A stretch of DNA of 64,000 bases. Source: Dysidea avara. Lineage: Eukaryota; Porifera; Demospongiae; Dictyoceratida; Dysideidae. The notes below the pieces were generated by a model. The model worked only from the letters and a program-made list of their open reading frames with translations, made no database searches and was not told where the DNA came from. This document shows positions 7,657-35,649 of the stretch, in pieces (the stretch's first letter is position 1; the number at the start of each line of letters is the position of its first letter). A program made the position numbers and the translations under genes. The stretch is from assembly GCF_963678975.1 (NCBI RefSeq), contig NC_089277.1, positions 18,476,257 through 18,540,256 of the forward strand. Direction: 5' to 3'.

Positions 7657-8152
7657 AGGGGAGTTGCAATGGTTTCAGCTGAAAAATAGTGCAAGCCCCT
7701 AATTTATTTGTGGGTGATAAAATCACCAAGAGTTATACATAGTGTATTATTATATTAGGACTTCTTCTACTGGCGAAGCTACATATACTTTTCAACAGCA
7801 GGTAGGGGCCTTTTTTCTTGGTCTTCAACTTACAGCTAGGCTGAAATTGAGTGGTACCCTCTGAAAATTTCTAGCTTCACCACTGTTTAGGAACACAAGG
7901 CCCACTCAGACATGTTGTGTCAGCAGAGAAAAATCAGTCATTAATGGTTACAGCCATAAAAATTTAATTGCTATTGAGATACATTACTGCAATCTGGTAC
8001 TCATGCTTATTGGATGACCTTTTTGCTTCATCATAAACTGTTGAATCTAGTTATGTATTGTGCCATATTTAACCAGCTCATGTAGAAGTTTATTACACTA
8101 GCAAGCCCTGCTTACCTGTTATCTTGTCACAGTGCTCAAAATTCTGTCTATT
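7657..8152. other. Unassigned stretch
   Basis: No supported gene. The portion 7790-7880 (TTTTTTCTTGGTCTTCAACTTACAGC, interrupted) resembles the T-tract module of the short elements, so this may be another decayed copy. Confidence 0.4.
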
Positions 8153-8562
8153 CAGAAGAGGATCCAGACTTTTCAAAAATGTAGTTCCACTCTGGAGTGT
8201 GACAACTATAACTTCAGTCTATAGCTAGTTGGAATGGTTCATAGCAAACATTTGCTCCCTGTATAGCAATGTTGACACAAGCTAGCACTCGAAAGCCTTT
8301 TTTAAGATTAACAATATGTATACGTAATTCCTTTTAGAGGCACTTATTGCATGAAAATATAGCAGCTGTAAGTACTTTTGCAGTACAATGAGGTTTAGCC
8401 ACTGCAAAGTCTTGCAATGAGTATTTCTTTGACTGATTATGATAAACTGGTTGTGGTTTTACTGAATGCAAACAAAATGCATTTAATTGTTAGTATCCCA
8501 TCAATTCTCTTCCAAAAGGAAGGGGGATCAATGGAACCCTTTGAATCCCCCTAGATTCTTGT
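8153..8562. mobile_element. Decayed copy of the GGCGGATCCAG short element
   Basis: The left end CAGAAGAGGATCCAGACTTT and the right end (ATCAATGGAACCCTTTGAAT near 8527-8546, then CCCCCTAGATTCTTG) match the ends of the element at 7184-7502 with scattered substitutions. The interior has diverged. It is an older insertion of the same family. Confidence 0.65.
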
Positions 8563-9786
8563 AAGCAGATGGTGTTTAATACAGTCATAAATGTTATTCC
8601 AATAGCTAGGGATTTAGGTAGAAAGCTGGCTATAGCCCGGAATCAGAATCTTGACTACATGAATATAAGCAACAGCCTATTACTGTATGTTAGCACAACA
8701 GGCAGAAGCAATGCACAGAATAGATATGCTGCACTATAAAGTGAAAATGCATGCATCACAGTAAAAGAATGATGAAGCAGGAAGGTTATATATATAGTTA
8801 TTTGACATACCTGTTAATTTTGAAAGTGGTAAAATTGTAGTAATCGTTGAAAGATTTTCTTTTTACACAGTTGCTTACATGCCAAAATTTATTATTGTAC
8901 AACTAAAAAATAAGCCACTGTAACTGAGGTTGTGACCATTATAATACATGATCATATTAGCAGGGGTGGGTTCAGTTGTTGATTAAGTTCAGTTAGAATG
9001 CAGAATTTAATATCCCAGCTGTCATGGATCTTTCAGCACAGGGAAAGTTGTAAGAGAATCAAGTCACCATTGGCTGTGGGATTTTTTCTGTTTTTAACTA
9101 TGTTTAACTGTCAAGATTGTAAGTCCCTGTATTAACAGCTTTTATATAATGCATAGCCTTCTAAAGGGTACCTGGTCAGATAGCACTGACGATGATGACA
9201 CTGTACATGTCCTTGTCGTTGGCAATAAGTTATTAGTTGATTTCCTCCACTAATACATATATATTCAGCATCAATCTATGCATTATACATACATAGCTAT
9301 GTGCAATTTTTTAGATAATGCCCATATCTCATTACCTTCATGGGACATCTGCATTCAGTAGTGTAACAAAGCCAATTAAATGTATAATAATTAAGGGCTG
9401 AAAATTGCATGGGATAAAAATGTTGTTCAATAATTTAGTAGTGTTTGGTTAAAATGTTTAAGGTGGTGAAGGCTGAGCTGCAGCCGAACTCTTCAGGAGC
9501 TGGCTACACAGCCAAGTAGTGTACACAAGGCTATTAGATAATGAGTTAATGATCAGCATTCTCTCAATGCCTACTTTCTGATGAGTCAGAGGATTAGCAG
9601 GCAGATGTATGAAGAAAACCCTGAGCCATAACATCAACATTTTAATAGTATGCTTAGGAGGGGGTAAGCAAAAAGAGTACTCTCTATACGATTGTGAAAA
9701 TGCTGAAAGTTATGAATGATCATTTAGTGCTATTTATCTATTGTAACTGAAAATACAAACCAACTGAAAAGATTTTGTTTGAATAA
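8563..9786. other. Gene-poor stretch 3' of the DM9/SOCS gene
   Basis: No convincing coding exon, RNA gene or repeat partner was found. A minus-strand open frame at 9458-9640 is short, has no recognisable composition and lies in the 3' flank of the next gene. Confidence 0.45.
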
Positions 9787-11012
9787 TTAATCAACCACAC
9801 GGCCAGTCACTTTGCAGAAATCCTTTAGCTGAGTAGGAAGATCCAACTGTTCAAGTCGGTCAGACATACCCATTGTGGCAGTGATGATAGCATTACGACA
9901 AAGACGTTTCAAGTTTTTTGGTGAATATCTCTTGTTCAACACTAATACTTCATATGACTCATAGTAGTACTCATCACCATTCCATATAACACACAAGCTT
10001 CCATGGCCGTTATCAATCTTTCCCACCAACTGTGTATTAGCAACCCTATCATGTGGTAATTTAATGGGAGCATCTTTGCGCCCTTTTCCAACTGATAGGT
10101 CACTACCAGTTACTGTACGACCAATGAAGTACAAATGAGCAAACTCACCATGACCACCGATGACAGCATTATGTGGCACATTTCCTCGAGAGTCTACAAC
10201 CCATTCAAACAGCTCTGGATTTTCCATTACTAACATTCCAAACCCATCATTGGTGTCATAAATATGTTCCTCTTGATCCCAGGTAACATGAAGACACATG
10301 TCCCAACTTATCACATAACCTGGTACTGATTCATTATGATTGGGATATGAATAATTAGGGCGCTCTCCTCTACCAACATACAACACGTCTCCATCAGGGG
10401 CAATGCCAGCAGGAAATGCATTAGGTGGAAGACCAAGACCAAACATTTTCACCCACTCATCTCTTGGATATGTAAAATGACTTAAGCTGGGCATTTGATA
10501 TGAGCAAAGAAATGAAAATTTGGACACTTCATATATCTTTCCATCGTAAGGTACATGAACCTTAAAAGTGTTTATAGGTGTGTGATGGCCTTGTACAAGA
10601 GTGCCTTCATCATACCATGCTTGTCCAAATCCAACAAGTGGACCATCAAAATCTGCTGGGAATTTGCTTTTAGTATAACTTCCTACCACTCTGCTCTCCT
10701 TGATAATATGGGGGTCAACCTGAGCAACAAAGTAGAAAAGTGGTTTACGCGTTTTTTTGGAGCACACAATATCTTTCGGAAAATATTTAGGGACTTTCTC
10801 AGAATATTCATCACACGGCTTCCAATAAAACACTACACAATCTGTACCAGTCAATGCTTCATACCTCACACAAAGCTTCAGTGTTAACTCCTTGTCACTT
10901 GTGTTACTGTAGTCACAGTATGCTATCATTTCTTGTGAAGGTGTGACAACCCCAAAAGGATATTCATCAACATAACGACGAGGCTCATACTGAGCAATGT
11001 AGAGGGTCTCAC
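9787..11012 (-). CDS. DM9-repeat protein with C-terminal SOCS box (last exon)
   Basis: A large terminal exon of about 408 codons. The reading frame stays open upstream of the first internal Met to a splice acceptor (TTTTATAG, ending at 11013), so the protein begins in an earlier exon not identified. Two DM9-type (DUF3421) units are visible: LPPNAFPAGIAPDGDVLYVG (near 10360-10430) and VPHNAVIGGHGEFAHLYFIG (near 10110-10190), followed by KGRKDAPIKL. The last 40 residues fit a SOCS box: LKRLCRNAII, then LPTQLKDFCKV. DM9 proteins bind sugars and act in pathogen recognition in molluscs (family knowledge). A SOCS box normally recruits Elongin B/C and Cullin-5 for ubiquitination. An intracellular recognition-and-degradation role is therefore plausible but inferred. 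No frame breaks are seen. Confidence 0.75.
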
Positions 11013-13001: not shown

Positions 13002-13374
13002 TTAGGAGTGTAAAGTGACCAAATTTCAGTCTGGTACCATATATAATCACAAGTAAAGTTATGGATTGCTAAGTACATGCAATTGGAAAGGCTATAAGAC
13101 CCCTTTTCACAGATCCAGTCACATATGCTGCATGGTTCAACCTCATTTCCAAACCTTGGATCTGGTCCTGTGGAGGGCATCTCCTAACAGATTTAAATGC
13201 ATTTAATGTCACATTGTCAGTAAATATGACTCCATCTCCCTTTATAGTGTTATACTATCAAAAGCATACACAGTAAAAGCACAAAATGTATGTTCTTGTA
13301 ATTTCATAGCTAATCTATACAATGAATTCATTAAATGTATACTGTACCTTGTGCTGTAAATATGCTTGTATCGT

Positions 13375-13492
13375 CTGTGTGTGTGTAGTGTGTGTGTAGT
13401 GTGTGTGTGTAGTGTGTGTGTGTAGTGTGTGTGTGTAGTGTGTGTGTAGGGTATGTAGCGTGTGTGTGTGTCGGTGTGTGTGTGTGTGTGAT
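13375..13492. repeat. GT-rich microsatellite
   Basis: An interrupted (GT)n tract with a repeating TGTGTGTGTAG unit. It gives spurious His/Thr-rich frames on the minus strand. Confidence 0.95.
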
Positions 13493-13658
13493 TTTGAGAT
13501 CAGGTAAATAAGTTCAGTTGCCAAAGTTGACCAGATATGCATTATGCATAATATCAAGAGTCCATAATAAGAGACTATGTACGTAGCACTCAGACTACTA
13601 CTGCAATCTGAAAAAGTGCAAACCCTCCTTGGCACGCCCCTGGTATGGGATCATGATT

Positions 13659-13730
13659 TAGTCTGGCGCCGCCTGCCCCTTCGCACAAAGTAATCTTACT
13701 TTTTGCGAAGGGGCGGGCAGCGCCAGACTA
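13659..13730. repeat. 72-bp near-perfect hairpin
   Basis: Two 35-bp arms with about three mismatches surround a 2-base loop. The arms start TAGTCTGGCGCCGCC and end with its inverse. It is GC-rich in an AT-rich neighbourhood. The flanks (GATCATGAT and GTGATCACC) are also roughly symmetrical. It may be a minimal foldback element or two fused TIR ends. Confidence 0.75.
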
Positions 13731-14142
13731 GTGATCACCAGTTCCTTGCGAGAAATGCCAACCCTCGGTTCGGATGCCTGGTCTCCCGGGATGGTGCGTA
13801 CACATTGATCTCACCTTTAACGTTCACTCCTGCGTGCACTGTTCCTGGCGGAATGCGGCCTTCAGCCGATGCTTTCATAAGTATCTTACAGTCCATTCAA
13901 GTGTCGTTTAGTGATTTACTGATTTATATATGAAAAACAAACTTAATTAATTCTATATGCGCATATTCGTTTAGTCTCGTGCGCCAAAAGTGAAGACTAG
14001 AAATTATCAAATCACAAAATAAAGAAATACTACGTATTATAGTTATTTACGCTGTCCCATTGCTGAGGCACCGATTGCAGTGCAGGTCGCTGAGGCCCAT
14101 ATGTAAGATAATTTGTTTTTGTTTATTATGTACTGTTTTATC
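13731..14142. other. Unassigned stretch right of the hairpin
   Basis: No supported gene. The sequence is unusually GC-rich up to about 13870, then AT-rich. The segment ending in the A-tract (about 13960-14142) could be a short interspersed element with its tail, but no RNA polymerase III box is clear enough to call. Confidence 0.3.
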
Positions 14143-14168
14143 TAAAAAAAAAAAAAAAAATAATAATA

Positions 14169-14216
<48 letters not shown>
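14143..14216. repeat. Long A-tracts
   Basis: Two A runs (about 17 and more than 40 bases) separated by TAATAATAGGTT. They could be a retroposon poly(A) tail; no target duplication was found. Confidence 0.85.
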
Positions 14217-14656: not shown

Positions 14657-17416
14657 TTAGTCTAATAAATCCTTGAAAAAGGCTTTAACTTTATTAACTT
14701 TCTTCAATCCCCGGTCTACAACATCATATCCACGAAACACCTCCCAAATATGCATTCTCAATGGAGGCTCTCTATCCTCATTAAATCTTGAAAGCGATTC
14801 TTTAAAACCTTTATCAATGAGTGAATAATCTACTTCTAAAAATAGTAATGATGCATTGTTGCCCATTTCCTGAATAGCTAAATTAAGGTCATCACTAGAA
14901 AAGTCGTTTAGCTCTAGATTGATCCATTCTAAGACGTCGTTGATCTGTAACATTTTAGCAATGGTAAACAATCCTTCAGAAGAAATGTTGCAGTTTCGTA
15001 ATTGAAGGTATGTTAGAGATTCATTATGTGCAAGAGTATCTGCTAGTACGGTCACACAGTGATCGTCAAATGCTTTACTGTTTGATAAGTCTAAGAAACT
15101 AAGTTGGCACTGGGATTGAATGATCATCATGAAATATTCTATTTGATGTTTATCAGCATAAGTATGCAGGGCTGCTAGCTCCCCACTGATATTGTTTGAT
15201 TCAAAAAATTTATGCAGGCATAATATTTCCGTGATATTAAGGTATGGACAGTCAACTACCCATTTTTTACCAGAATGGACAATACAGTATGACAGTGAAG
15301 ACAACACTTGCGATGTTAAGGCAGAGTCAGGGATGTCTATATAACAAGCGTCGCTATAAAAGAGTGCACTGCTACAAAGTGTTTTACAAGCAGCAGGATT
15401 TTGTGCCTCAGCACAACAACTGATCAAGACTAGCAATGTATCATTTGAAAAAGTATTAGATGTAACCTCCGTGTAGTAATCCTTTGCTATTGTACTGATC
15501 CGAAAAAGTTTCGCAGCATTGCTATTCTTCAATACAAGCTGTAAATCAACTGATACCATGCTCAGTAAAAATTTTTTTGCTAGTTCTTTATTTATTACAG
15601 CAGATAAAACAATTTCAATATTTATGGTTCTCAAACCAGTAAGCCCAGCATAGAATAACAAACTCATTTCACAAGCTTTATTATCCAGTATATTGATAAA
15701 CATCATTTCCTGCTTATTTGAGGGTAGTTTTGTCAAGTACCAAGCAGCTACAAATTCTTGAATAGTTCTATGTAAAAAGCTAAACGTTCTATAGTTGCTT
15801 TTATGCATGATATGGTTTTCTACTTTTAATAATCCCATTCCATCAAAATCTATTGGAATGGCCTGACCATAGTAATGTCTTATTCTGTCTTCATCAATAG
15901 TAAAATTTTCTTCAATCAGCTCCTGAAATGCTATGTTGCTTAAGTGTTTAAGTTGACCATTGATGTAATCTGGCAAAGCCTCTAGTTGTTCAAATATTTT
16001 TTTTGTGTTCTCCATTCTTAAATTGTAATGACTCAATTTAAACAACAAGTACTGTTGATAGAGTTCAGTCAGAGAGCTCGGCAGTCTCTCTCCACATTGC
16101 TTGAACACATGCACTAAAATTGATAAGTTTACTGGAGTACAGGCCAACGACTTTAGTGCTAAGTGGGAATCAAGCTCAGTCAAAAATCTGTCTCTAAGTT
16201 TACCTTCTAAGCAATTTGTCAAGTAGAGTTTTACCTGATCTTCAGAAAATCCAAGTATAGCAATATGACGGGTCACAAATATTTTCTGTATAGTTCCAAT
16301 AGAAGATGGTCGACTGGTAATCAAGACACTGGCATCTTTAAATAATTTTCTAGAAATAATGTCAGCAAGAAATGAGTCACGCTGTTTATCTTCATGAAGT
16401 TCGTCCCAGCCTTCCAGTATTAGTAAAGAATTTCTACCGTGACAAGAGTGGATATCTTGTATGGCTTCAAAAGCAAAATGCGCATTTCCAGTGCTGCAGT
16501 AAATTAGCTCATCAATGCTGTACATATTGACAATTCTAGGGTCTCTTAATTTTAACATGATGACAAGCGTATAATTCTGTATAAGTGCTCCTTTGGCCCA
16601 CTGCCTGCAAATCTCATTAGCTAGGGTAGTTTTACCACTACCAGGTGATCCTTGTATGAGTATAACTTGCTGGCCAATTCCTGGTACGTCAAATATTTCT
16701 GGTAATGATTTTAGTATAGTTTTGTTGTTATGTCCTTTGTGCTTAAACAATAAACTATAGGGATCTGCTATGGCTTTGAAGTATTCGTATTCATCACCTC
16801 CATGTTGCTCAGGTGTTATCAAGCTCAAGTTGATATACTGGTTAATATTTGGACCTTCAAAATTGTCTTCTGCGACTGGTTTACTATTTTGCAAGTAAAA
16901 TTGTCTAAGGTGCTCTTTATACTCAAGTAAACTTACAGAGACAGCTAAGTTCATCACCGATGGATTGTCAACTGTGTCATTCAGGCTGTCCGCTAAACTT
17001 TGCAGCAGCTGGTAAAGCTCAGCATTATTGGGAATATCTAATGCTAAACATTTCATAAACATTTTAATAAAATCAAGATTCTTATCTTTTAACATTGTTA
17101 CAAAGTAATCTTCTCTACTTGCTCCATTTCTGATAGCTTCACTGTCAACATTACAACCAAGTGCAGTTATTTCATTGGCACCCAAAAGGTCTCCTAAATA
17201 CACAGCCATTGTATCAATGTTTAGATGCTCTTTAATTTCTTCTTCACTGTTGAATACAACACAACACAGTATCATACTTTCTACAAAAGTAGTGTAGCGA
17301 GGATCAGTTTTTAAAATTGAGCAGAACTTTTCAAAGTAGTCTGGCAAAAACCTCACACATCTTAGAACAGTATCAAAACACTTCCTATATAAAAATAACT
17401 TTGTATCGTCATACAA
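14657..17416 (-). CDS. NLR-type NACHT/LRR immune receptor, intronless, N-terminus uncertain
   Basis: An uninterrupted frame of about 919 codons. It has an alpha-helical N-terminal region of about 240 residues and then a NACHT NTPase. Walker A GSPGSGKTT lies near residue 255 (about 16625-16655). Walker B LLILEGWDEL lies near residue 337, followed by a VLITSRPSS sensor near 370. NACHT-associated helical regions contain DFDGMGLLKVE and FSFLHRTIQEFVAAWYL. The C-terminus (about residues 790-890) has short ribonuclease-inhibitor-type leucine-rich repeats such as LTYLQLRNCNISSEGL. Such proteins sense danger signals in the cytosol (family knowledge). The first codon of the open frame is TTG; the first ATG comes about 48 codons in. 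An in-frame TAG at 17429-17431 separates it from homologous upstream coding sequence (17432-17605). The protein may therefore start internally, or the gene may be a recent pseudogene. A decayed paralogue lies at 20330-23650. Confidence 0.85.
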   Translation of the reverse strand: MYDDTKLFLYRKCFDTVLRCVRFLPDYFEKFCSILKTDPRYTTFVESMILCCVVFNSEEEIKEHLNIDTMAVYLGDLLGANEITALGCNVDSEAIRNGASREDYFVTMLKDKNLDFIKMFMKCLALDIPNNAELYQLLQSLADSLNDTVDNPSVMNLAVSVSLLEYKEHLRQFYLQNSKPVAEDNFEGPNINQYINLSLITPEQHGGDEYEYFKAIADPYSLLFKHKGHNNKTILKSLPEIFDVPGIGQQVILIQGSPGSGKTTLANEICRQWAKGALIQNYTLVIMLKLRDPRIVNMYSIDELIYCSTGNAHFAFEAIQDIHSCHGRNSLLILEGWDELHEDKQRDSFLADIISRKLFKDASVLITSRPSSIGTIQKIFVTRHIAILGFSEDQVKLYLTNCLEGKLRDRFLTELDSHLALKSLACTPVNLSILVHVFKQCGERLPSSLTELYQQYLLFKLSHYNLRMENTKKIFEQLEALPDYINGQLKHLSNIAFQELIEENFTIDEDRIRHYYGQAIPIDFDGMGLLKVENHIMHKSNYRTFSFLHRTIQEFVAAWYLTKLPSNKQEMMFINILDNKACEMSLLFYAGLTGLRTINIEIVLSAVINKELAKKFLLSMVSVDLQLVLKNSNAAKLFRISTIAKDYYTEVTSNTFSNDTLLVLISCCAEAQNPAACKTLCSSALFYSDACYIDIPDSALTSQVLSSLSYCIVHSGKKWVVDCPYLNITEILCLHKFFESNNISGELAALHTYADKHQIEYFMMIIQSQCQLSFLDLSNSKAFDDHCVTVLADTLAHNESLTYLQLRNCNISSEGLFTIAKMLQINDVLEWINLELNDFSSDDLNLAIQEMGNNASLLFLEVDYSLIDKGFKESLSRFNEDREPPLRMHIWEVFRGYDVVDRGLKKVNKVKAFFKDLLD

Positions 17417-18129: not shown

Positions 18130-18720
18130 CCTGATATAAGCTTATTGATCATCTAGATCTTGTATACTTCAGAGGAAAGAATATAACTTCAGTAAATTAA
18201 AAGTGCACAGTATGTGCATGTACACTAAGGAATGCTATAAACTATAAAACTATAATTCAAAATACTAGAACAAAATTTTGAACTGTTTTTTTCACTACTA
18301 AAACAGACTACAACTACAGTACCTATATAGCTACTATTGTCCAATGAAGAGGTCTGTGCACTAGTGAAGCACTTGTTTTAGTTCCACTCATAATCCCTGA
18401 CAGGTCCACAAGTAATACGTAGATTCATCGTCATTATACTGTGTCCACATACAGTACACTTCTTGGCATGCACCTGAAAAGCTTGGTAGGCTTCAGTGTT
18501 ACAATTTTCAACAATTGAGTGGCCACATGGAAGATAGGTAGAGCAGAACATTCACCAATTCATTTTGTGATGTGGTAACATTACAAACAGGTAAATATCT
18601 GTAGCTTTCCAATAAATTGGCAACTTCACTATTTTTTTTAGAAAACTCTAAGCCAAACAGTGGGATGATGAACAAATTCTGTTCAGCAAAGTAAACAAAC
18701 AGAAAGCTTTAAAATTTAGT
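18130..18720 (-). pseudogene. Decayed fragment of the VioB-like gene
   Basis: The segment matches the 3' flank and C-terminal coding region of the intact gene at 30675-33992. 18130-18345 matches 30490-30650, 18346-18484 matches 30650-30772, and 18485-18700 matches 31553-31770. The 780 bp between 30769 and 31549 of the intact gene are missing, and the join lies in a shared GCTT (18481-18484). That removes 260 codons including part of the ferritin-like domain. Extra small indels break the frame, and nothing corresponding to the first two thirds of the gene was found. It is a duplicated, non-functional copy. Confidence 0.8.
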
Positions 18721-25353: not shown

Positions 25354-28251
25354 TTACAACAAATCTAGTCCAAAAATACAATTATTAAACTGTTCTAGTG
25401 ACTCTGTATCGATGATGTGATTAGGGAGGTTATTCCATTGCTTGATAGTTCCTGGAAAGTAACTCTGTTGGTAAGCAAGTGTTCTAGTTGGAGGAATTAT
25501 ATATCTGTATTGGTGATGCAATCTAGTTGGATATGAAGTAGGCTTGAAATACTCAGGGAGCTGGATAGATGGCAAAGCGTGATGTAATACTCTATATAGT
25601 AAGTTCAAACGATCAATACATCTTCTGCTCTGTAGGCTCTTCCAATGCAGTTGATCCAACAGGTAAGTGACACTACTCATTGGATTGTAATCCGATGCTA
25701 CCCATCTTGCAGCACGACGTTGTACCTTCTCTAAAGTATTAATTAAGTATAGCTGGTGAGGGTCCCAGACACAACTAGCATATTCCAGCAGAGGACGTAT
25801 TGATGTTAAATAGGCTGTTATCTTAACTTCTTTGGAGCATTTACTTATATTACGTTTAAGAAAGTTGAGACTTTTAGTTGCTTTGCCGCAAAGATGATCG
25901 ATGTGGTGGGACCAAGACATTGATTGGTGGAATATGACCCCTAGATATGGATGCTGACTCTTCAGTTCCAGAGCTTTATTGTCAATGCTGTAGGTGGTGA
26001 GCATGGGAGTTTTGCTTCTTGAACAACGTAGAAAAACACACTTTTCAACATTTAGTTTCATTTGCCAAGTTTTAGCCCAGTGGAAGACTTTATTTAGATC
26101 TTGTTGTAGGATACTATTGTCTTCTTCTGAATCAATAATTCTGTAAATAATACAGTCATCGGCAAAGAGACGAATCGAGGAGTTGATATTTGTAGATATG
26201 TCATTGATGTAAAGTAGGAACATTAATGGCCCAAGTACAGTGCCTTGTGGGACACCTGACTTTACTGGAACAAACCTGGAAGTTACATTATTTAGCACTA
26301 CTCTTTGTTTGCGTTGTGTTAACCAAGCCTTAATCCATTGATGAAGGTCTCCTTGTATTCCATAGTGTGATAGTTTCTGTAATAATCGTTTATGAGGAAC
26401 TGAGTCAAAAGCTTTTGAGAAATCTAATAAAATTAGATCTATTTGTTTCTGTTGGTCCATTACCTTTAAGATTTCCTCTGTTAGCATTACTAGTTGGGAT
26501 TGACATGAGTACTTAGGCCTAAAACCGTGTTGGCAATTATTGAGGATATTATTTTGGTCTACATGATTCATAATTGAGTGAAAAACAATATGTTCCATTA
26601 CCTTGCAACAGGTAGAGGTAAGAGAAATTGGTCGATAATTATTAGCTGAGTTTCGGTTGCCTTTCTTATGTACAGGGACAACATTTGCTGTTAGCCAGTC
26701 AGTTGGAAGATTGTTGGTGGTAAAAGATTGAGTAAAAATTACCTGGAGTATAGGTGCAATTTCAGCTCTGCATAATTTCAGTATTTGCGTAGGAATCCCA
26801 TCAGGACCTGGAGCCTTGCTAGTATCCAATTGTTGAAGTAAGTTTTCAATTCCTTCGGTTGAAAATATAATGTGGTCACAAATGGGATACGTAGGAATGT
26901 CCAGATTTGGAGTTTCGTTATCTTCGTCAGTAAAAAAAGTGTAGAACTGATCATTAAATGCATTAGCAATGTCAACAGAAGAAGTAAGCAGGGAGTCATT
27001 ACTTTCTAAGGTGGTAACGTTTGGATGGTCTTTCTTTAAGTTCTTGATTAATGACCAAAATCGTTTTCTGTTGTTGCAGTGGGAGTCGTCAAATAGGTAT
27101 TTACAGTAATTGTTATGAGCTTTATCAACTAAACTGTTAACTTCGTTCCTTAGCTTCCTGTACGCTTTCCAGTCGTTTTCATTTTGTGTAGCCTTAGCTT
27201 TGTTGTACAATCTACGCCTTTTAGATATCTTACGTTTAATTTCTCGATTTAGCCATGGAGCTTCTTTGCGATTCTTGACCATTCTTGATGGAACGTGCCT
27301 GTTCGTCATTTCAAAAATCATATCTTTGAAATTATTCCAGTTATTTTCAACAGGTCTTTTGTAGGGATCACTCTGGAAGAACAGGTCTTTAAAAGCTCTA
27401 ACATCTTCTAGCATTGATTCTGTGTTTGCTTTGTGAAAAAGGTAAGTTCTGTGCGGATTGTTATTAGGTGCATCGCAAGTTGTATACAATGTAAAAGTAA
27501 CTGCTTCATGGTCTGACATTCCAGGTACAACCTTGATGTTGTCAATAAGATATGGTGATGTTGTCAGGACTAAGTCCAATACGTTATCGTTTCTCGTAGG
27601 TTCAAGTATCTGTTGTTCCAAGCTGAAATCATTAATTACGTCAACAAACAGGTTATTCACTTCTGCTCCATATGTTGGTCCAGGTTTAACATGACCGATT
27701 CCGTCACTCCATTCTATACTAGGAAAGTTAAAGTCCCCTGCTAGTATAATATTAGATTGGTTTCCTTTAGTTCTACTGATGTGTTGAAGGGCCTCTTTCA
27801 AACTTAGGATAGGGTTGCTTAGAGCATCAGGTGGCCGGTAAAATGAGCAAACAAGGCATGGCTCATGAGAGACTGGGTAAATTTCCGCCCATATCATTTC
27901 AGCATTTTGTGATAAGTTGGGTTGTTCTGTGAATTTCAAGTTTTTTGTAAAGGCGAGAAATACCCCTCCTCCTCCAGAGGTTCGGTCTTTCCTTATCACA
28001 GAGAAATCGTTAGGAAATATTTCAGCAGTGGAGTAGGTTTCATCTAGGTGTGACTCACATCCTATTATAATATGGGGTCGGTTTTCAAAAATTAAAGTTT
28101 GGAGCCTCCCTCTTTTGTTTAAGCTCCTTAGACTGCAGCAATTAAAACTAAGTACTCTCAGCTCAGATTTGTTGTTGTTTGTGCATGTGTAATTAGAATC
28201 ATTTAGGGTGGGATTATCAGTGCTGGGGAGTGAGTTGCTAGTAATTATGGT
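25354..28251 (-). CDS. LINE ORF2: AP-type endonuclease and reverse transcriptase
   Basis: The frame is open for 966 codons from the ORF1 stop region. The endonuclease has LRVLSFNCCSL near the N-terminus, a GCESHLDE segment, FYRPPD, ILAGDFNFP (about 27725-27750) and MSDHEAV (the SDH motif). The reverse transcriptase has PGPDGIP, YRPISL, LILLDFSKAFDSVPH, GVPQGTVLGPLMFLLYIND and the catalytic FADD box (about 26165-26180). The C-terminus carries the usual YASCVWDPHQ and QWNNLP segments. The product copies the LINE RNA into nicked target DNA. The frame overlaps the end of ORF1 in the -1 phase and has no early in-frame ATG, so frameshifting or reinitiation may be used (inference). Confidence 0.9.
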   Translation of the reverse strand, partial: TIITSNSLPSTDNPTLNDSNYTCTNNNKSELRVLSFNCCSLRSLNKRGRLQTLIFENRPHIIIGCESHLDETYSTAEIFPNDFSVIRKDRTSGGGGVFLAFTKNLKFTEQPNLSQNAEMIWAEIYPVSHEPCLVCSFYRPPDALSNPILSLKEALQHISRTKGNQSNIILAGDFNFPSIEWSDGIGHVKPGPTYGAEVNNLFVDVINDFSLEQQILEPTRNDNVLDLVLTTSPYLIDNIKVVPGMSDHEAVTFTLYTTCDAPNNNPHRTYLFHKANTESMLEDVRAFKDLFFQSDPYKRPVENNWNNFKDMIFEMTNRHVPSRMVKNRKEAPWLNREIKRKISKRRRLYNKAKATQNENDWKAYRKLRNEVNSLVDKAHNNYCKYLFDDSHCNNRKRFWSLIKNLKKDHPNVTTLESNDSLLTSSVDIANAFNDQFYTFFTDEDNETPNLDIPTYPICDHIIFSTEGIENLLQQLDTSKAPGPDGIPTQILKLCRAEIAPILQVIFTQSFTTNNLPTDWLTANVVPVHKKGNRNSANNYRPISLTSTCCKVMEHIVFHSIMNHVDQNNILNNCQHGFRPKYSCQSQLVMLTEEILKVMDQQKQIDLILLDFSKAFDSVPHKRLLQKLSHYGIQGDLHQWIKAWLTQRKQRVVLNNVTSRFVPVKSGVPQGTVLGPLMFLLYINDISTNINSSIRLFADDCIIYRIIDSEEDNSILQQDLNKVFHWAKTWQMKLNVEKCVFLRCSRSKTPMLTTYSIDNKALELKSQHPYLGVIFHQSMSWSHHIDHLCGKATKSLNFLKRNISKCSKEVKITAYLTSIRPLLEYASCVWDPHQLYLINTLEKVQRRAARWVASDYNPMSSVTYLLDQLHWKSLQSRRCIDRLNLLYRVLHHALPSIQLPEYFKPTSYPTRLHHQYRYIIPPTRTLAYQQSYFPGTIKQWNNLPNHIIDTESLEQFNNCIFGLDLL

Positions 28252-29150
28252 CTCCTCGGCACTATTGTGCCGTTTTTTATTATGTAATTCTTACCATCTT
28301 TGTTCATCTCATTTAGTTGGTTTCTTAACATTTTGTTCTTCTTTTGTTCAAGTGGCGTGCAGTCAGCAGATACGTAAACTGGCTTTTCTTGGTTTAAATT
28401 ATTTCCATTCTTAAGTTTAGACTTGTTTCTCAAAATTGCAACTTTATCTTGGAGGTTGGAAACGGTGACTTTGAGTAAGCGGGCTCTACCACCTTTCTTT
28501 CCGATTCTGATAGCATTAGTAACTAAGGTTTCCACTCCTAAACTTTCGGTAAACAATGATGTAGCTGTTTTAATATCATCTCTCTTTCTGGTTTGTGGGT
28601 CTTCTTCCTTTGATTCTTCTATATTGTGCAAAATTAGATTAAGCTGTCTTTTTTCTTTTTCTTTCTGCTCAGAAATGATAGAAGAAGTCAAGTGGGCAAC
28701 AGATTCTTCATCACTGGGGTCAGGGGTTATCTTTGACAAGGGTTTGTTGTAATTCTCTAATTGTTCATTTATTCCCTCCACAATTCCAGTGAGTTTTTCT
28801 TCTACTGCTTCAAGCCTTGCATTGACATTCTGCTGCTCCTGTTGGAGTGCGGATGTACCAGAATCTACTTTCAGTGCGAAAGCAACTTTTGTATAGCATA
28901 ACGTACAGAAAAACATAATTTTCTCACTGCTACCACTCAAAATGTTATACTCGTTTTGAGTTAGACCTGCACATATTCTGTGTTCCCACTTACAGCACCA
29001 CTGACATTGTACAGCATCTTTCTTAGCTTCTTTTTTACAAGTAACACATTTCTCGACTTGTGGGGCTTGTTTAGTTTTCTTACTATCTCTTTTGGGAGGT
29101 GAGGTGTCTTCTGGTAGCTTGCGTTTGATGATTGAGGTTTGGCTAGCCAT
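28245..29150 (-). CDS. LINE ORF1: PHD-type zinc finger and coiled coil
   Basis: A 301-codon frame from ATG at 29150. After a basic N-terminus (PPKRDSKKTKQ) comes a Cys/His cluster, CVTCKKEAKKDAVQCQWCC, then KWEHRICAGL and FFCTLC. This spacing fits a PHD-type finger (about residues 35-85). A coiled-coil stretch (LEAVEEKLTGIVEGINEQLE, about residues 110-130) follows. A basic conserved block EKEKRQLNLILHNIEES (about 165-180) resembles RNA-binding ORF1 proteins of CR1/L2 elements. A related, broken ORF1 lies at 44350-45190. ORF1 proteins package the LINE RNA (family knowledge). Confidence 0.85.
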   Translation of the reverse strand: MASQTSIIKRKLPEDTSPPKRDSKKTKQAPQVEKCVTCKKEAKKDAVQCQWCCKWEHRICAGLTQNEYNILSGSSEKIMFFCTLCYTKVAFALKVDSGTSALQQEQQNVNARLEAVEEKLTGIVEGINEQLENYNKPLSKITPDPSDEESVAHLTSSIISEQKEKEKRQLNLILHNIEESKEEDPQTRKRDDIKTATSLFTESLGVETLVTNAIRIGKKGGRARLLKVTVSNLQDKVAILRNKSKLKNGNNLNQEKPVYVSADCTPLEQKKNKMLRNQLNEMNKDGKNYIIKNGTIVPRRP

Positions 29151-29290: not shown

Positions 29291-30489
29291 GATTTGACGA
29301 GTTGAGAATGAAGAGCAAATTTCGCGTAAACGATCGATCACGTGATGGTTCAGTAGTGTTATATAGAAAACTTATTGGTGCAACAAAATAGTGTGTGAAA
29401 GTATTAGAGGTATACATTCATTTTAGCTGCATATGTGATTGGAAAACCTGCACATTAGTAAATTTTCTGAGTTATAGCTTAAATAAGGTACTACATGGGT
29501 GTTTATCTATCTTGTGTTAAAATGTTAGCTTGATATCTATACATATCAAGCATTTCCCTGAGATATGACCAATATTCTGTATTGTACATTACAAACTAAC
29601 TTTTATGGTAATGCATTGAGTCCTGTGGATGATTAAGGGTGACAAATAAATGGTAACAAATCACTTTGTTTACCAGTAATTCCATTCCTACCATCTAAAG
29701 TACTTAAGAAGAGATTTCTGATAGTTTAATATTCTTGGTACTTTTCAGCAATCATATGTCATGTATCATTGTCTAAGACTTAGTTTTAACGATTCCATCA
29801 CCTGAACAAACCACCCAATTTGTAAGTTAATTGGTGTCCCACGCATGTGAAATTACTACGTGGTCTGATATAATCATCCATATCTATTGCTTGTAAAATC
29901 TTGCTAGATTATTTCATATTCATACTACAAAGGAATGCTTTGGATATTAAAGATTATTATAGCAACAGTTCAGGTGTTGAACAGATTCAATCATGCATGC
30001 TGGGATTTAAGGACAGCCAACAAAAAATCTATACAGTAGTTGCCAATTGACTCATAACCTAATTTTTTCCATATTATACGAGAATATTGTAACACCAGGC
30101 CAGTATCATATTAATTGTGGGGGTCAATAACTGCTTGATAGGAAAATGTGGTACATCTACGGTATCTATATAGCATTTTCATACCAAAATGTACTGACTT
30201 TAATGTAGGGGGAACACACAGTTTGATCATAGCAGGCTTAGTAGCTTTATATGATTTCACATAAATGTATTATAAACTCTTGCCGTTAATTAATCTACAC
30301 ATACCCATAAATTTCTATAGGTGTAAGCATCACACATTCTTGGAAGGAGCTATTCAAGAGCAGGGAGATTTTTTTAGGAATTCTCCTACGTATTCAATAA
30401 CATAATCCTGCATGTTATGATTCAGTACCTATACAACCTATATGTGGTGATGCAGTGAGTCAAATGCAGCACCATTACTCCACTACATA
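29291..30489. other. Intergenic stretch between LINE and VioB-like gene
   Basis: No gene is seen. The left part (29290-29340) is GC-richer and may belong to the LINE 5' UTR. Its right neighbour, 30490-30674, is the 3' flank of the VioB-like gene and is conserved in the duplicated fragment at 18130-18345. Confidence 0.45.
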
Positions 30490-30674
30490 TATAGCCTGAT
30501 GTATGTTTAAAATTAGTACACTTCAGAATACAGAATGTAACTTTTGAATAGTACACTAAGGGTTGCTATAACTACAAATACTAGTACAGAACTTTGAATA
30601 AATGAGTGATTTCCACTACTCAAACATATAGCAACTATTGTTACACAAAGAGGTCTGTGTATGGAGTACTTGTT

Positions 30675-33600
30675 TCAGTTCCACTCATAATTCCAGACAG
30701 GTCCACAAGTAGTGGATTCATCATCATTATACTGTGTCCACATACACTTCTTGGCATGTACCTGAAGAGCTTCCATCAATTCAATAGAGTGGTGTATCTT
30801 ATTTGGCTCTCCATTAAATGCTTTGTGTAGAACACGCAAGAAGCTACGATACGTACGATGAAATGCTCTAGCTTCAGTATGACAAGAAGTACCAGGATTA
30901 ATACTTTCACCATCCGGATTATCCCTCATAGGATACACACCGTCTGAGTTCAATTCAATAGGAGCACCAGCATAGGCATAGCCTCCTTGATCTGTTGCAA
31001 CCAGTCGTTTCTGACAAACAATTTCTTCAAAGCGATAAAAGTGACCATATTGACCTGTCTCAACCTGGTTAGGATTGAGGGGACCCACTCCCTCACTTTG
31101 TTCTATTATTTGAGCTATTCCACTTAAAGCTGACTCCACATCTGTGACAATATATACAGTACCTATGCTACTTGGCTCCGTCCAAGGCCAGTGAACTTGA
31201 CGACTTGCAATGCTTGCATCAAATATATCTTCACCAAGAATGTTGATGCAAACTGCTACCTCTTTGTACAACTGGCCTATGGTAAAGAGTGTGAATTCTG
31301 GGAATGATTTGTCAACATATGTTAATGATGGAGTTTCTATGGCAATCATTATGTCATAGACGTGCTGTAAGTTAAAGTTTTCTAAGTTGATGTCAAGTCC
31401 CGGTAACACTCCACCAGGAAGACCTCCAGTTGAAGGGTAAGATGGCACATGGTTTGGATCATCAACAATCACTTCTCCACCAACTGCAATGAGAATATTT
31501 GCTGCCTGAACAAAATGTAACATCTCTTGCATTGCTATTTCTCTAATGGCTTGGTAGGCTTCAGTGTTACAATTCTCAACAATGGAGTACATGGAAGATA
31601 GGTAGAGCGGAAGAGTAAAAAACTCAAGTAGTATTGCTGTTGCCAATTGACTTCGTAATGTTATAATATTACAAACAGGTGAATATCCATAACTTTCCAA
31701 TAAATCGGCAACTTCATTATTTTCTTTAAAAGCTTCTAAGCCAAACAGTGCTCTAGGTGGATGACGAGCAAATTCTTTTACTTGAGCATAAGTTGGGTCA
31801 CTTCCAAAAGCCTTTTGAAAATGTTCATCTTGCTTTTGTGGATCAGTGTTAAATGGTATATTCTTTAATAAACACCTTGGTGCATTGACTGAAGAACTAC
31901 CTTTTTTCTTTCTATTAGGAGGCAGAGAGGAGGTATCACAAATTGGGGCTTCGTCAATGCTTTGTTTACTTTCAACAGAGCTGTATAGAGGATCATCTAA
32001 CCATGTCAATATCATCTGTCTTTTAGTAGGTGAAAGATCTCTGGTTGTAGGCATGTAGTTGGGATCACTAGTTGGTTTTAATAACACTTTCTTGAGCAAT
32101 CCAATATTATGAGGCAGTATAACTTCTGTATAGTTGCTCATATCTAAGATGGTCCTCATGATGTAGTGAAGCCTATGCAACTGTTCAAAGATTGGTTTAA
32201 CATGATCCACCCACGTGTAAGGTGCTTCATATGCAGGAGTAGAAAATGCAAGTATTGAGATCAGGCCTTTGAAAATGTAATAATCATCTTCTGGAAGAGT
32301 ACATTCCTCTCCAACGCAGTAGTAGAAATTGTATAGCTGGCCATCAATGGGTAAAACAGTGATGGGAACATCTTCTGTGGATGGGGCAGTTGGATGATAT
32401 TTCCTTCTAAAAGGAGTAAATTTACCCAGTAGTTCTGCTTTTTGAGTTTCTATATGATCAGGGCAAGGATCATTTTCATAACTTCTTACCATGGGAATTG
32501 GATTATTGACTGCAAATGTGAAAGTTACTTTCCCGTTGTCCTCTGTTGTTTTAGTTGACACAGTAGGTAACACAGCTCCAGTTGGGAGTACAATTTGACC
32601 TTGTTGATTAGGACTGTCTATCATCGTTACCTTTGCATTACTAACCGGCTGACCAAACCGTGTAACAATCAGAGTAAAATCACTAGTGCTTATTGCATTA
32701 TTTTCACTACCACTGGAATATTCTAATCTATCCATATAGTAGTCCATGGGACGGACAAAATATTCCATTTCTGATAACAGCAAAGACACTGTTTCATCAC
32801 TTTGCATTGAAGGGAAGGTTGCTTTAACTGGATAGTTGTTTCCACTAGTAGCATCTCCGGAATCAATAAAAACTACAAGCTTTGCATTTGCAAGTTTACT
32901 AGCTACATCAGTAGCAAGGCTTTGTTCAATAATTCCTGAATGTTTCCACATAGTGCTGTTAGCATCGGCATAAGGAATAGGTTCCCCAAATGGTTGCACT
33001 ACACCATCCACAAGGACACCAAAATACAGGCTTCCAATATCTAATGGGTTTCCACTGTGATGCATGGGTAGAGCATTTCCAAGATCAGCTACCAAAACAT
33101 TTCGGGTGGAGTCAACTTTGAATGGTGCACCATAACTCCATGGTTTCTCATTATCTTCATCAAATCCATGACACGGATGACCTTCTGGAAAGTTGAATGG
33201 TCCAACATCTTTATAATCCATCTTTCTTTCTCCACCAACATTTAAAGGTTCATTGGCCATGGCTACACCAATAGTACCAAGAACTCGACCAACAAAAACA
33301 TCAACTTTGCAAACATCTATAGTAATGGACACAGATAGGTCACCCGTAGTACCCTGACGTCTAGTAGCTTCTTTAAGGTCTTTGATGGCATCAGATTGAG
33401 ACCACAACAGATCAGTGATTCTTGTAGTGCTCTGTGCACCTAATTTGCTACTACCTAACAATGTGATGTCATTGGTACACTTCATTTTATGCCACACATC
33501 ATGAACAATCACTGATGTTGACCACTTTCCCAAAAACAAATCTTCCCCATTATGTTTCAAGCCAAATTCCAGTCCGTATAACGACGAAACTTGAAAGTCA

Positions 33601-33992
33601 ACATCAATATCAACAATTTTTCCAAATGAATGATTATTGTTACTGAAAATTTCTGATCCTAATAATGGACTATCAAGAATTTCTTCTCCATTTTCACCAA
33701 TTACAGCTGTGACAACTGTATCAACAAACTCCCATTCATTGGTACCTTGATAGTTCCACTCGTCATCTTCATTTAATGGTTTATCTGGATGAAAGTTGCA
33801 AGGATTGTTATTACGACTGTTGACATCAGCTCTGAATGTGCCAGCAAAATGAATGCGTGGAAGATCCAAGTATGATCCGTGAACTTTGCTAAAGAACATC
33901 ATACTTGATAACAGAAATGCAATTTTCATGACAAAGGTTTTCTTTATTCCACTAAAGAGACCAAATAATGCCAGGATTAGATATGAATCCAT
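30675..33992 (-). CDS. Secreted VioB-like (iminophenyl-pyruvate dimer synthase family) protein, intronless
   Basis: A single exon of 1105 codons from ATG at 33992. A second ATG at 33929 starts MKIAFLLSSMMFFSKVHG, a good signal peptide. The mature N-terminus has LDLPRIHFAGTF (about residue 43), the motif that opens bacterial VioB. The middle holds an Ig/transthyretin-like stretch (about 445-510) and YMPTTRDLSPTKRQMILTWL (about 650), also VioB-like. Residues about 785-990 form the ferritin-like domain (Pfam family of VioB). It has ILLEFFTLPLYLSSMYSI, IREIAMQEMLHFVQAANILI, GGEV, FTIGQLYKEV and GHFYRFEEIV, with the Glu and Glu-x-x-His positions present. VioB condenses two indole-3-pyruvate imines in violacein synthesis; the substrate here is unknown. 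The length is close to the bacterial enzyme (about 1000 residues). The lack of introns and the bacterial relatives suggest lateral acquisition or retroposition (inference). A broken copy lies at 18130-18720. Confidence 0.8.
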   Translation of the reverse strand: MDSYLILALFGLFSGIKKTFVMKIAFLLSSMMFFSKVHGSYLDLPRIHFAGTFRADVNSRNNNPCNFHPDKPLNEDDEWNYQGTNEWEFVDTVVTAVIGENGEEILDSPLLGSEIFSNNNHSFGKIVDIDVDFQVSSLYGLEFGLKHNGEDLFLGKWSTSVIVHDVWHKMKCTNDITLLGSSKLGAQSTTRITDLLWSQSDAIKDLKEATRRQGTTGDLSVSITIDVCKVDVFVGRVLGTIGVAMANEPLNVGGERKMDYKDVGPFNFPEGHPCHGFDEDNEKPWSYGAPFKVDSTRNVLVADLGNALPMHHSGNPLDIGSLYFGVLVDGVVQPFGEPIPYADANSTMWKHSGIIEQSLATDVASKLANAKLVVFIDSGDATSGNNYPVKATFPSMQSDETVSLLLSEMEYFVRPMDYYMDRLEYSSGSENNAISTSDFTLIVTRFGQPVSNAKVTMIDSPNQQGQIVLPTGAVLPTVSTKTTEDNGKVTFTFAVNNPIPMVRSYENDPCPDHIETQKAELLGKFTPFRRKYHPTAPSTEDVPITVLPIDGQLYNFYYCVGEECTLPEDDYYIFKGLISILAFSTPAYEAPYTWVDHVKPIFEQLHRLHYIMRTILDMSNYTEVILPHNIGLLKKVLLKPTSDPNYMPTTRDLSPTKRQMILTWLDDPLYSSVESKQSIDEAPICDTSSLPPNRKKKGSSSVNAPRCLLKNIPFNTDPQKQDEHFQKAFGSDPTYAQVKEFARHPPRALFGLEAFKENNEVADLLESYGYSPVCNIITLRSQLATAILLEFFTLPLYLSSMYSIVENCNTEAYQAIREIAMQEMLHFVQAANILIAVGGEVIVDDPNHVPSYPSTGGLPGGVLPGLDINLENFNLQHVYDIMIAIETPSLTYVDKSFPEFTLFTIGQLYKEVAVCINILGEDIFDASIASRQVHWPWTEPSSIGTVYIVTDVESALSGIAQIIEQSEGVGPLNPNQVETGQYGHFYRFEEIVCQKRLVATDQGGYAYAGAPIELNSDGVYPMRDNPDGESINPGTSCHTEARAFHRTYRSFLRVLHKAFNGEPNKIHHSIELMEALQVHAKKCMWTQYNDDESTTCGPVWNYEWN

Positions 33993-34747
33993 ACTCAATT
34001 AGTTGCACAATTATTTGCAAATAGATCACCTGAATGAAGATAAATCTCATTAAATCATTCACAAATATGGTCCACAGTTGTTTTAATGATATTGCTACTA
34101 ACACTTAAATTAATAGAACACACTTTTACAGTAAAATACTCTAATTGAACAATCACATTTGTGACCTGGATCATTTCAAGTTTTTTGATTTTGGTAAGAC
34201 CATACCTATTTGAAAAGTTGCTGTTCGGATTTATTTTAAAACAAAATGGGTTGGTAGGTAGGCAAAAAAACAAACAAACAAACAAAAAAACCAGCTAGCT
34301 AACTAGTTTTAGATATGTTTATGATTTCTGGTTACAAGCCATAAACTATTTCAAAATAGATCACTCTTTTATTATTTTAAGTAGATCAGTAAATCACATC
34401 AAAGAAATGTTTAGCTGCATGCAGACCTTATTATAAATGGATAAACATAGCTAGAAGTTCAATGAGCATTGATGTATTGGTATTAGCTATCATAGATTTT
34501 CTTAGCTAGGGTTCAACATGCTGGTTTTAAGTGATCTACGCCTAGCATTTACAGTATGATAGTACTGTATAGTAGGGACCACAAAGGAGTAGGTGTGGTC
34601 CATGGGATAACATGACCCAAAAATTAGCCTCAATTTCCCCTAATGACAATCAGGCAGTAATGGTTAGGTAAAACTAAGCCCAAACAAGCTTTCAGATTGA
34701 CCCAAAGTGCTTTCAACAAGTTGCTACAGAATTTAAAAAGTTTTTAT
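33993..34747. other. 5' flank of the VioB-like gene
   Basis: No gene is seen. It contains one weak ACTCTAATTGAACAATCAC core-motif copy (34135-34153) and an A-rich CAAA repeat (34264-34290). A promoter for the VioB-like gene should be here, but no element stands out. Confidence 0.4.
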
Positions 34748-35068
34748 TTAGTGGAATTTTCTACTGACTGATTGAGTAACTGACTGACTGATGTCTTCAG
34801 ACAAGCATAATTCGATAATGGCTAAGACTACGGGCTTGATTTTTTCACTGTTCGACGTTGCTTCGGCTCGACAGGTTCCATTTGGGATACAGCAATACAC
34901 ATACAGTGCATTCTTCATGGATTTACCAGTGTCCTCCTTTGTGTCCCATTCATCTTTGCTGACAGCGAAAAGTGCCAATTTGGCGGTAGCACATGATGGC
35001 TTCCCTTTGTAATGGAAATCGTCCATATTTTTCATAGTAGCTATTTTGATTGCATGAGGTGCTTTCAA
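34748..35068 (-). CDS. Small unknown frame of repetitive character
   Basis: A 106-codon frame (MKAPHAIKIATMKNMDDFHY at the start; KLALFAVSKDEWDTKEDTGK, then NALYVYCCIPNGTC, in the middle). The Trp/Asp/Lys-rich composition is more protein-like than chance frames nearby. Its upstream side (35041-35340) is a tandem duplication, so it may be part of a repetitive element rather than a host gene. No family is recognised and no splice sites settle the ends. Confidence 0.3.
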   Translation of the reverse strand: MKAPHAIKIATMKNMDDFHYKGKPSCATAKLALFAVSKDEWDTKEDTGKSMKNALYVYCCIPNGTCRAEATSNSEKIKPVVLAIIELCLSEDISQSVTQSVSRKFH

Positions 35069-35335
35069 ACAGTTCTTGATTCATACTGCTGTGTAATGGG
35101 TTGAACATAGCCGACAAAGAAGTGTAATGGACACTTCATTCTCAGACAATAATTGATTTAACTGGGGCTTGTAGCACCATTTCTTTCTTTGGGTATGCAT
35201 GGATTGTAGAGGTGCTTTTTGAACAGTTCTTGATTCAAAATGTTGCATAACGTGTTGAACATAGCTGACAACAAAGCATAATGGATACTTCACTTTTTAG
35301 ATGATAATTGGGGTGCACGGTGCCATTTCAGATGC
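35044..35335. repeat. Imperfect direct duplication, unit about 165 bp
   Basis: 35065-35180 and 35222-35335 share AACAGTTCTTGATTCA, GTTGAACATAGC, AATGGA and ACTTCA in the same order, and both end near a CACCATTTC/GTGCCATTTC string. It looks like an old tandem duplication next to the small unknown frame. Confidence 0.65.
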
Positions 35336-35649
35336 GGTATACATGGGTTCACCAGTCATAATAATTATTTACAAAAAAAGTTAACAAGAAGTACATAGAA
35401 AAAATTGGAATTTTCAACTAGAGTAGGGACCATAGCACATCGATAAAAAGTACTGAAACAAGCTGGAGTAGTACACAATATTAAATCACAGTAAAACAAT
35501 AAGACATGTTATATCCCTACTGTGCTCAAGATACCATAATGAAAATGCACAGTAGAGATATGTTGTTTCTTTGCTTCAATTGGCTAAATCAATCTTCTTA
35601 GGTCTACCAACAGACAATTTTTACAGCGAGTTAAGGCCCTAATGAGTTA

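Follow-up and report, generated by a model that had tools for sequence, protein, structure and literature searches.

The genome of the sponge Dysidea avara carries, within a stretch of 64,000 nucleotides (the window; contig C6, 18476257-18540256), a gene for a protein with a ferritin-like domain of bacterial type and a signal-peptide-like start. This protein, copy A, is one of four of its kind in the genome (A, B and C in tandem on C6, D on C12), and its frame runs from 30675 to 33992 on the minus strand, 1105 codons from ATG without interruption (a TTG at 33998 would give 1107 codons). The intact, intronless frame claimed for this DNA by an earlier sequence-only reading is therefore confirmed, and the LPRIHF block, the TRDLSP block and the complete ferritin-like domain that it listed are all present. 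The best explanation, in which we have about even confidence, is that these proteins form a family of secreted ferritin-like oxidases with affinity to the fused VioB-like proteins of bacteria, long resident in the animal line and altered in its chemistry. A bacterial gene of the fused type, in which both halves of the protein lie in one frame, probably entered the animal line long ago, and the signal peptide, the cysteines and the linker would have been gained after entry. Export and disulfide formation would allow the protein to work outside the cell, where it would act as a metal-dependent oxidase or peroxidase (diiron or haem) on a small aromatic compound, probably derived from an amino acid, as the analogy with VioB, RebD and StaD suggests, and the exchange of the bacterial motif YANLYP for xHxLHY would reflect a changed chemistry or partner. 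Beyond the signal-like start and the conserved ligand set, every step of this model is one that we infer.

Layout of the protein and its bacterial relatives

Relatives of copy A are plentiful in bacteria. A tblastn search of plasmids returned 165 records, six of which (H1-H6) span at least 80% of the query, and a gene pair of Gloeothece is matched over the whole length (27.4% across 95% of the query, E 7e-68). In five records (H1, H2, H3, H5 and H7) the match is to adjacent genes annotated as a 'hypothetical protein' and a 'ferritin-like protein', and the plasmid record H14 holds a single ferritin-like gene. Phage records gave no match to the copy A protein, and one scan of viral contigs gave six pattern matches, none of them a relative. 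A single scan of bacterial and archaeal genomes with an alignment of the N-terminal half (N-half) brought up 117 relatives, and the top 80, representing 79 loci, were kept; together with L001-L006 these make 85 loci, all but one of which (L006) hold an N-half frame. Among these 84 loci, 16 are fused, 64 are split, with a separate frame for the C-terminal half (C-half) nearby, and four (L032, L062, L069 and L078) are without a nearby C-half frame and were left out of the combined tree; these counts describe a best-scoring subset chosen by an animal-led N-half alignment and are not true frequencies. The 16 fused relatives come from eight bacterial phyla (e.g., Chitinophaga, L007; Solibacteraceae, L012; Chloroflexi, L014; Pyrinomonadaceae, L016), and 10 of the first 12 ranked loci (L007-L018) are of the fused type. 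Where the two halves join, copy A likewise resembles the fused type, reading DDPLYSSVES against DNPLYMELDS in the fused locus L010. No partner gene common between loci was found in a Pfam scan of 20 chosen neighbours at eight of the 16 fused loci.

Copy A and the fused bacterial proteins have both halves in the same order in one frame, with 30-34% identity over the 16 rows and the same six putative metal ligands. In the split pairs two separate genes encode these halves, again in this order, and trees set the pairs apart from the fused and animal rows. In the N-half, no Pfam family exceeds its cut-off in copy A or in five bacterial N-halves that were also scanned. The fused proteins, 13 of whose 16 frames are 891-950 amino acids long, differ from copy A in being without the leader, the linker and the mid insert, in mostly keeping YANLYP and in having 1-12 cysteines (16 rows) versus 16 in copy A. 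The mid insert and the linker are present in all four animal copies and in none of the bacterial rows displayed (every second row of the alignment). At each of the 16 cysteine positions of copy A, bacteria mostly have a gap or a different residue; 15 of the 16 cysteines recur in all four copies.

The N-terminus of copy A, MDSYLILALFGLFSGIKKTFVMKIAFLLSSMMFFSKVHG followed by SYLDLP, reads like a signal peptide, being hydrophobic and having V-H-G before SYLD. Its putative cut, set by eye, coincides with the exact point where the bacterial relatives start: a bacterial start codon directly precedes S/TYL in 75 of 80 rows, and of the five rows unmatched by this search motif three (L027, L059 and L080) can be seen to start at this point too, with different residues. 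The hydrophobic leader ends in SKVHG in copies A and B and in RESYA in copy D, in which a separate, different signal-like stretch precedes the same SYLD start. The leader of copy B contains a single Met, the first of the protein, which is therefore probably used as start. The earlier claim of a signal peptide that bacteria do not have thus stands as far as a signal-like leader is concerned, with its cleavage point read by eye. Taken together, the leader, the cysteines, the linker and the mid insert are probably the marks of an extracellular, disulfide-bonded protein, for which export is predicted.

Ferritin-like domain, altered motif and likeness to known systems

The ferritin-like domain of copy A matches Pfam family PF12902 with 137.1 bits (cut-off 22.3, E 1e-39) over positions 1-220 of the 221 of the profile. 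Six residues, E792, E825, H828, E888, E969 and H986, do not vary among the 80 bacterial rows; copy A retains them, and the four-copy alignment shows them in copies B, C and D as well. The same six positions align by eye in 3hl1 (PDB, 317 amino acids; profile E 4.7e-22), a solved ferritin-like protein which we take to be from Caulobacter and in which the match is confined to the ferritin-like part. From the ferritin-like fold these six residues are putative metal ligands, and the domain most likely holds two iron atoms. Sirtuins appeared among the PDB matches only weakly, with E 0.05 or worse, and were taken as chance.

The altered motif lies upstream of this domain. YANLYP is highly conserved in bacteria (Y607 in 79, Y611 in 79 and P612 in 80 of 80 rows), and at the same site (607-612) the animal proteins read LHRLHY (A), SHRLHY (B and C) or FHHLHY (D). 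No other sign points as clearly as this replacement to a possible difference in function between the animal proteins and the bacterial ones. In a bolder and doubtful extension of the model, the animal took up a fused oxidase that was then exported, locked by disulfides and duplicated in tandem; the His pair of xHxLHY could bind a metal or haem, and the enzyme would make or destroy a defence compound outside the cell, where a secreted amino-acid oxidase might supply it with an imine and with peroxide. We regard as doubtful to the same degree that the protein is a secreted structural or metal-binding protein that uses the ferritin-like fold as a scaffold and has lost the ancestral enzyme activity. 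The loss of so conserved a bacterial motif would fit such a protein, and the extra cysteines and the linker would suit an extracellular structural role. However, a scaffold would not need the six putative metal ligands, which all four copies keep, and copy A also retains 35 of the 39 columns that are invariant across the 80 bacterial rows.

Many diiron sites of the ferritin-like kind employ O2 or peroxide, and the protein could be a secreted defence or detoxification enzyme, catalase- or peroxidase-like, that destroys peroxide or microbial aromatics rather than making a metabolite. The tandem copies and the relics (Table 1) fit a family whose copies turn over fast, but the NACHT and DM9 genes of the window are at least 13 kb off and without a link to copy A, and we consider this explanation unlikely.

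VioB, RebD and StaD, of the violacein, rebeccamycin and staurosporine pathways, are proteins with a two-part layout that couple two indole-3-pyruvate imines. Weak local matches to the VioB model, in copy A or its bacterial relatives, occur at both ends and in the RDLS block. In contrast, copy A carries a signal-like leader and scores far under the cut-off of the VioB equivalog model TIGR04492 (19.7 bits versus 1250), and of eight fused bacterial proteins four score 23.9-42.9 bits and four are without a match at E 0.01. Judged by these scores, copy A and its scanned fused relatives are not VioB proper, and because the scores are equally low in the bacterial relatives, indole dimerisation cannot be carried over. 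The VioB-like identity proposed at first is therefore upheld for the two-part layout and withdrawn for the indole-dimer synthase. The known enzymes contain haem and couple imines supplied by an amino-acid oxidase, as stated in passages of two papers (PMC10851217, PMC10847564).

A possible hint of function comes from the bacterial ebo genes. At least three of six ebo genes are present in the fetched stretch at 18 of 64 split and three of 16 fused loci, counts that stand without a measured background rate, with ebo queries taken from L003 and L004 (themselves among the 18 split loci), with two of the three fused cases from closely related Streptomyces and with many stretches ending at contig ends. 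The ebo-adjoining loci include L003, L004, L005, L009, L010 and L019, and the fused locus L018 has two ebo matches in addition to those counted. According to a section of PMC6282210, the ebo cluster of Nostoc takes part in the transfer of scytonemin intermediates to the periplasm; the same source relates that nematodes could feed on a Pseudomonas once insertions had disrupted a cluster with ebo genes. Together with the proximity to ebo genes, this is a hint, and no more, of a role for the bacterial pair on metabolites that are exported. Neither 'ferritin' nor 'VioB' occurs in the main text of two ebo papers (PMC6282210, PMC5133447). A general Pfam scan of 17 frames of the window, with no search aimed at ebo genes, found none of the TatD, UbiA and dehydroquinate synthase families. 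Locus L018, from a metagenome-assembled genome of Symploca, contains three PF12902-type genes within about 9 kb (5144-6709, 8013-10859 and 13201-14181). One of the three is fused, the other two stand alone, and frames resembling EboE and EboF lie close by.

Trees and origin of the animal genes

Kinship of the animal protein with the fused bacterial type is supported by trees of bacterial rows and the animal's own rows, with eukaryotic collections and true VioB, RebD and StaD sequences outside them. In the tree of 81 rows, the animal protein and the 16 fused rows are parted from the 64 split rows with a Shimodaira-Hasegawa-like approximate likelihood ratio (SH-aLRT) support of 100. The same grouping is obtained with supports of 99/100 in a tree of 35 rows, which includes 18 hand-chosen split rows, and of 99/93 after the addition of copy D (36 rows). 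Single-half trees are weaker but agree in so far as the shortest paths from the animal lead to fused rows or to a set that includes them. At 2.6-2.7 changes per column for the animal row alone and 1.9 below copies A and D, the branch to the animal is very long. Approximately unbiased (AU) tests with the animal row place it with an 11-row fused group in the best tree (82/47), and its placement with a five-row group has p 0.197; with copy D added, the best tree has the fused rows alone (53/13), and placement of the animals with the 11-row or the five-row group has p 0.401 and 0.152, respectively. In these trees the animal clade stands beside the fused bacterial group and is not demonstrably nested inside it. 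The comparison with bacterial sequences called for by the sequence-only reading has thus been made, and the lateral acquisition that it suggested gains from bacterial homologues that are plentiful and close in layout, although nesting among them was not obtained; the transfer is something that we continue to infer.

Several observations weigh against our best explanation. The tree program warned of the long branch and of an unlike letter make-up, a grouping of the fused rows without the animal is not rejected (AU p 0.398), the animal is absent in the C-half tree from every starred set that comprises half the rows or fewer, and the smallest such set with the animal in the N-half tree consists of the 16 fused rows and four split rows. 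The top single N-half match (L008, 145.7 bits) and the top C-half identity (40%, L025) both belong to the split type. Copy A departs from the bacterial invariant columns at 83, 192, 612 and 968, the last of which is Ser in copies A and B and Gly, the bacterial state, in C and D, so that only 83, 192 and 612 are family-wide departures. The replacement of YANLYP might mean a loss of catalysis, and copy D has an uncertain start, which an upstream exon may contain. Reports from other eukaryotes belong to the same side: a passage of PMC4417212 mentions PF12902 genes from fungi, and part of PMC7563238 gives the PF12902 label to vesicle proteins of Schistosoma haematobium, which could be ordinary ferritin. 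These reports would fit an old eukaryotic or animal family that descended vertically, without lateral transfer, and is kept by few eukaryotes, as would an animal clade that attaches beside the fused group on a long branch of 2.6 changes per column. Set against vertical descent are the mature-protein frame, which runs from SYLD to the stop without interruption in all four copies, and the spread of the 16 fused relatives across eight phyla, and we hold it to be improbable.

No description of an animal VioB-type two-part protein was found in the literature, judged mostly by titles and abstracts. If selected, exported and multi-copy, the family of copy A would add a new type to the extracellular proteins of animals and would serve as a test case for the acquisition of bacterial secondary-metabolism genes by animals. 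It also draws attention to a widespread, uncharacterised bacterial protein pair that in part adjoins ebo genes.

Gene family, relics and genomic surroundings

A PF12902 search of the sponge's own genome (550.8 Mb in 108 contigs) matched at four places, those of copies A to D; the same search of 14 control genomes matched in one, that of Caulobacter vibrioides. Copies A and B lie within a duplicated block, in which 30113-35561 of the window matches at 93.9% over 5.5 kb. The ratio of nonsynonymous to synonymous substitution rates (dN/dS, Nei-Gojobori) in the six pairs of copies is 0.24-0.27 with copy D and 0.30-0.36 among A, B and C (for copy A, 0.25 versus D at dS 1.3, and 0.30 versus B), values to be read with the three C6 pairs being young and copy C possibly a recent loss. 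This pattern of substitution suggests that the family has been kept for a purpose. Decayed copies are found as well (Table 1). The relic of the window has 10, 14 and 10 substitutions at the three codon positions, a roughly even spread as expected of a dead copy. The second relic (L098) has the same internal deletion and, as the relic of the window runs past the stop codon, the two look like copies of one decayed unit.

Table 1. Positions of the features described (in the window unless a contig or locus is named).
Feature	Position	Strand	Remarks
Signal-peptide-like N-terminal extension, 39 residues	33876..33992	-	By eye; none in bacterial relatives
N-terminal half, about 620 amino acids	32004..33875	-	Colinear with the bacterial 'hypothetical protein' half (alignment)
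LPRIHF block, amino acids 46-51	33846..33863	-	Close to the start of the mature region; sequence and alignment
Mid insert, about amino acids 502-545 (about 45 residues)	32364..32495	-	With Cys common to all four animal copies
xHxLHY motif, amino acids 607-612	32163..32180	-	Bacteria mostly YANLYP
TRDLSP block, amino acids 652-657	32028..32045	-	Sequence and alignment
Cys-containing linker between the halves, about amino acids 672-780 (about 100 residues)	31659..31985	-	In all four animal copies
Ferritin-like domain PF12902, amino acids 785-994	31017..31646	-	Six putative metal ligands; Pfam profile
Copy B	C6:18561195		PF12902 match, 1112-codon frame
Copy C	C6:18589242		PF12902 match, 1081-codon frame; stops in the leader region
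Copy D	C12:9746278		PF12902 match, 1140-codon frame
Decayed partial copy (relic)	18250..18683	-	Internal deletion and frameshift; runs past the stop codon
Second relic	L098 8690-9142		Same internal deletion as the relic of the window
Further partial C-terminal copy	L101 4808-5992		Between B and C; 79% over 729 bases plus an 87-base piece
NACHT and weak leucine-rich repeat match	14657-17416	-	One 919-codon frame; Pfam; about 13 kb from copy A
Three DM9 stretches and SOCS box	9787-10929	-	One open frame; Pfam; about 20 kb from copy A
LINE-like element	25354-29150	-	Closest identified neighbour; ends 1.5 kb downstream of copy A
gag-pol pieces	46-50 kb		Pfam

An uninterrupted frame for a bacterial-type protein could also arise from bacterial contamination or by chance, but this explanation, of practically negligible probability, is ruled out by the position on a contig of 40.5 Mb that also carries tandem copies and relics, by a frame GC content (0.388) similar to that of the window (0.33-0.44), by the cysteines, linker and leader not found in bacterial rows, and by the eukaryotic content of the window, which is without N runs and in which a Pfam scan identifies the NACHT and leucine-rich repeat gene, the DM9 and SOCS box gene, an element resembling a long interspersed nuclear element (LINE) and the gag-pol pieces. 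DM9 and SOCS box domains together with NACHT and leucine-rich repeat genes fit an animal genome. When 20 sequences of 64 kb were generated with an order-1 Markov model, their longest frames between stops had 119-215 codons, versus 1105 for copy A, which excludes a chance origin of the frame. Introns were considered at two places. A GTAAG at 32489, within the mid insert, resembles a splice donor and is accompanied by two in-phase acceptor-like sites, and this intron was rejected because the stretch is kept as protein, Cys included, in all four copies; an intron in the linker was rejected on the same ground.

The statement that the gene lies next to immune-type genes proved loose, given the distances of the NACHT and DM9 genes (Table 1) and the LINE-like element lying nearer. 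We know of no other pairing of DM9 stretches with a SOCS box. In the LINE-like element, one frame has a weak PHD-finger match, under the cut-off, and the other (25354-27999) encodes an endonuclease and a reverse transcriptase.

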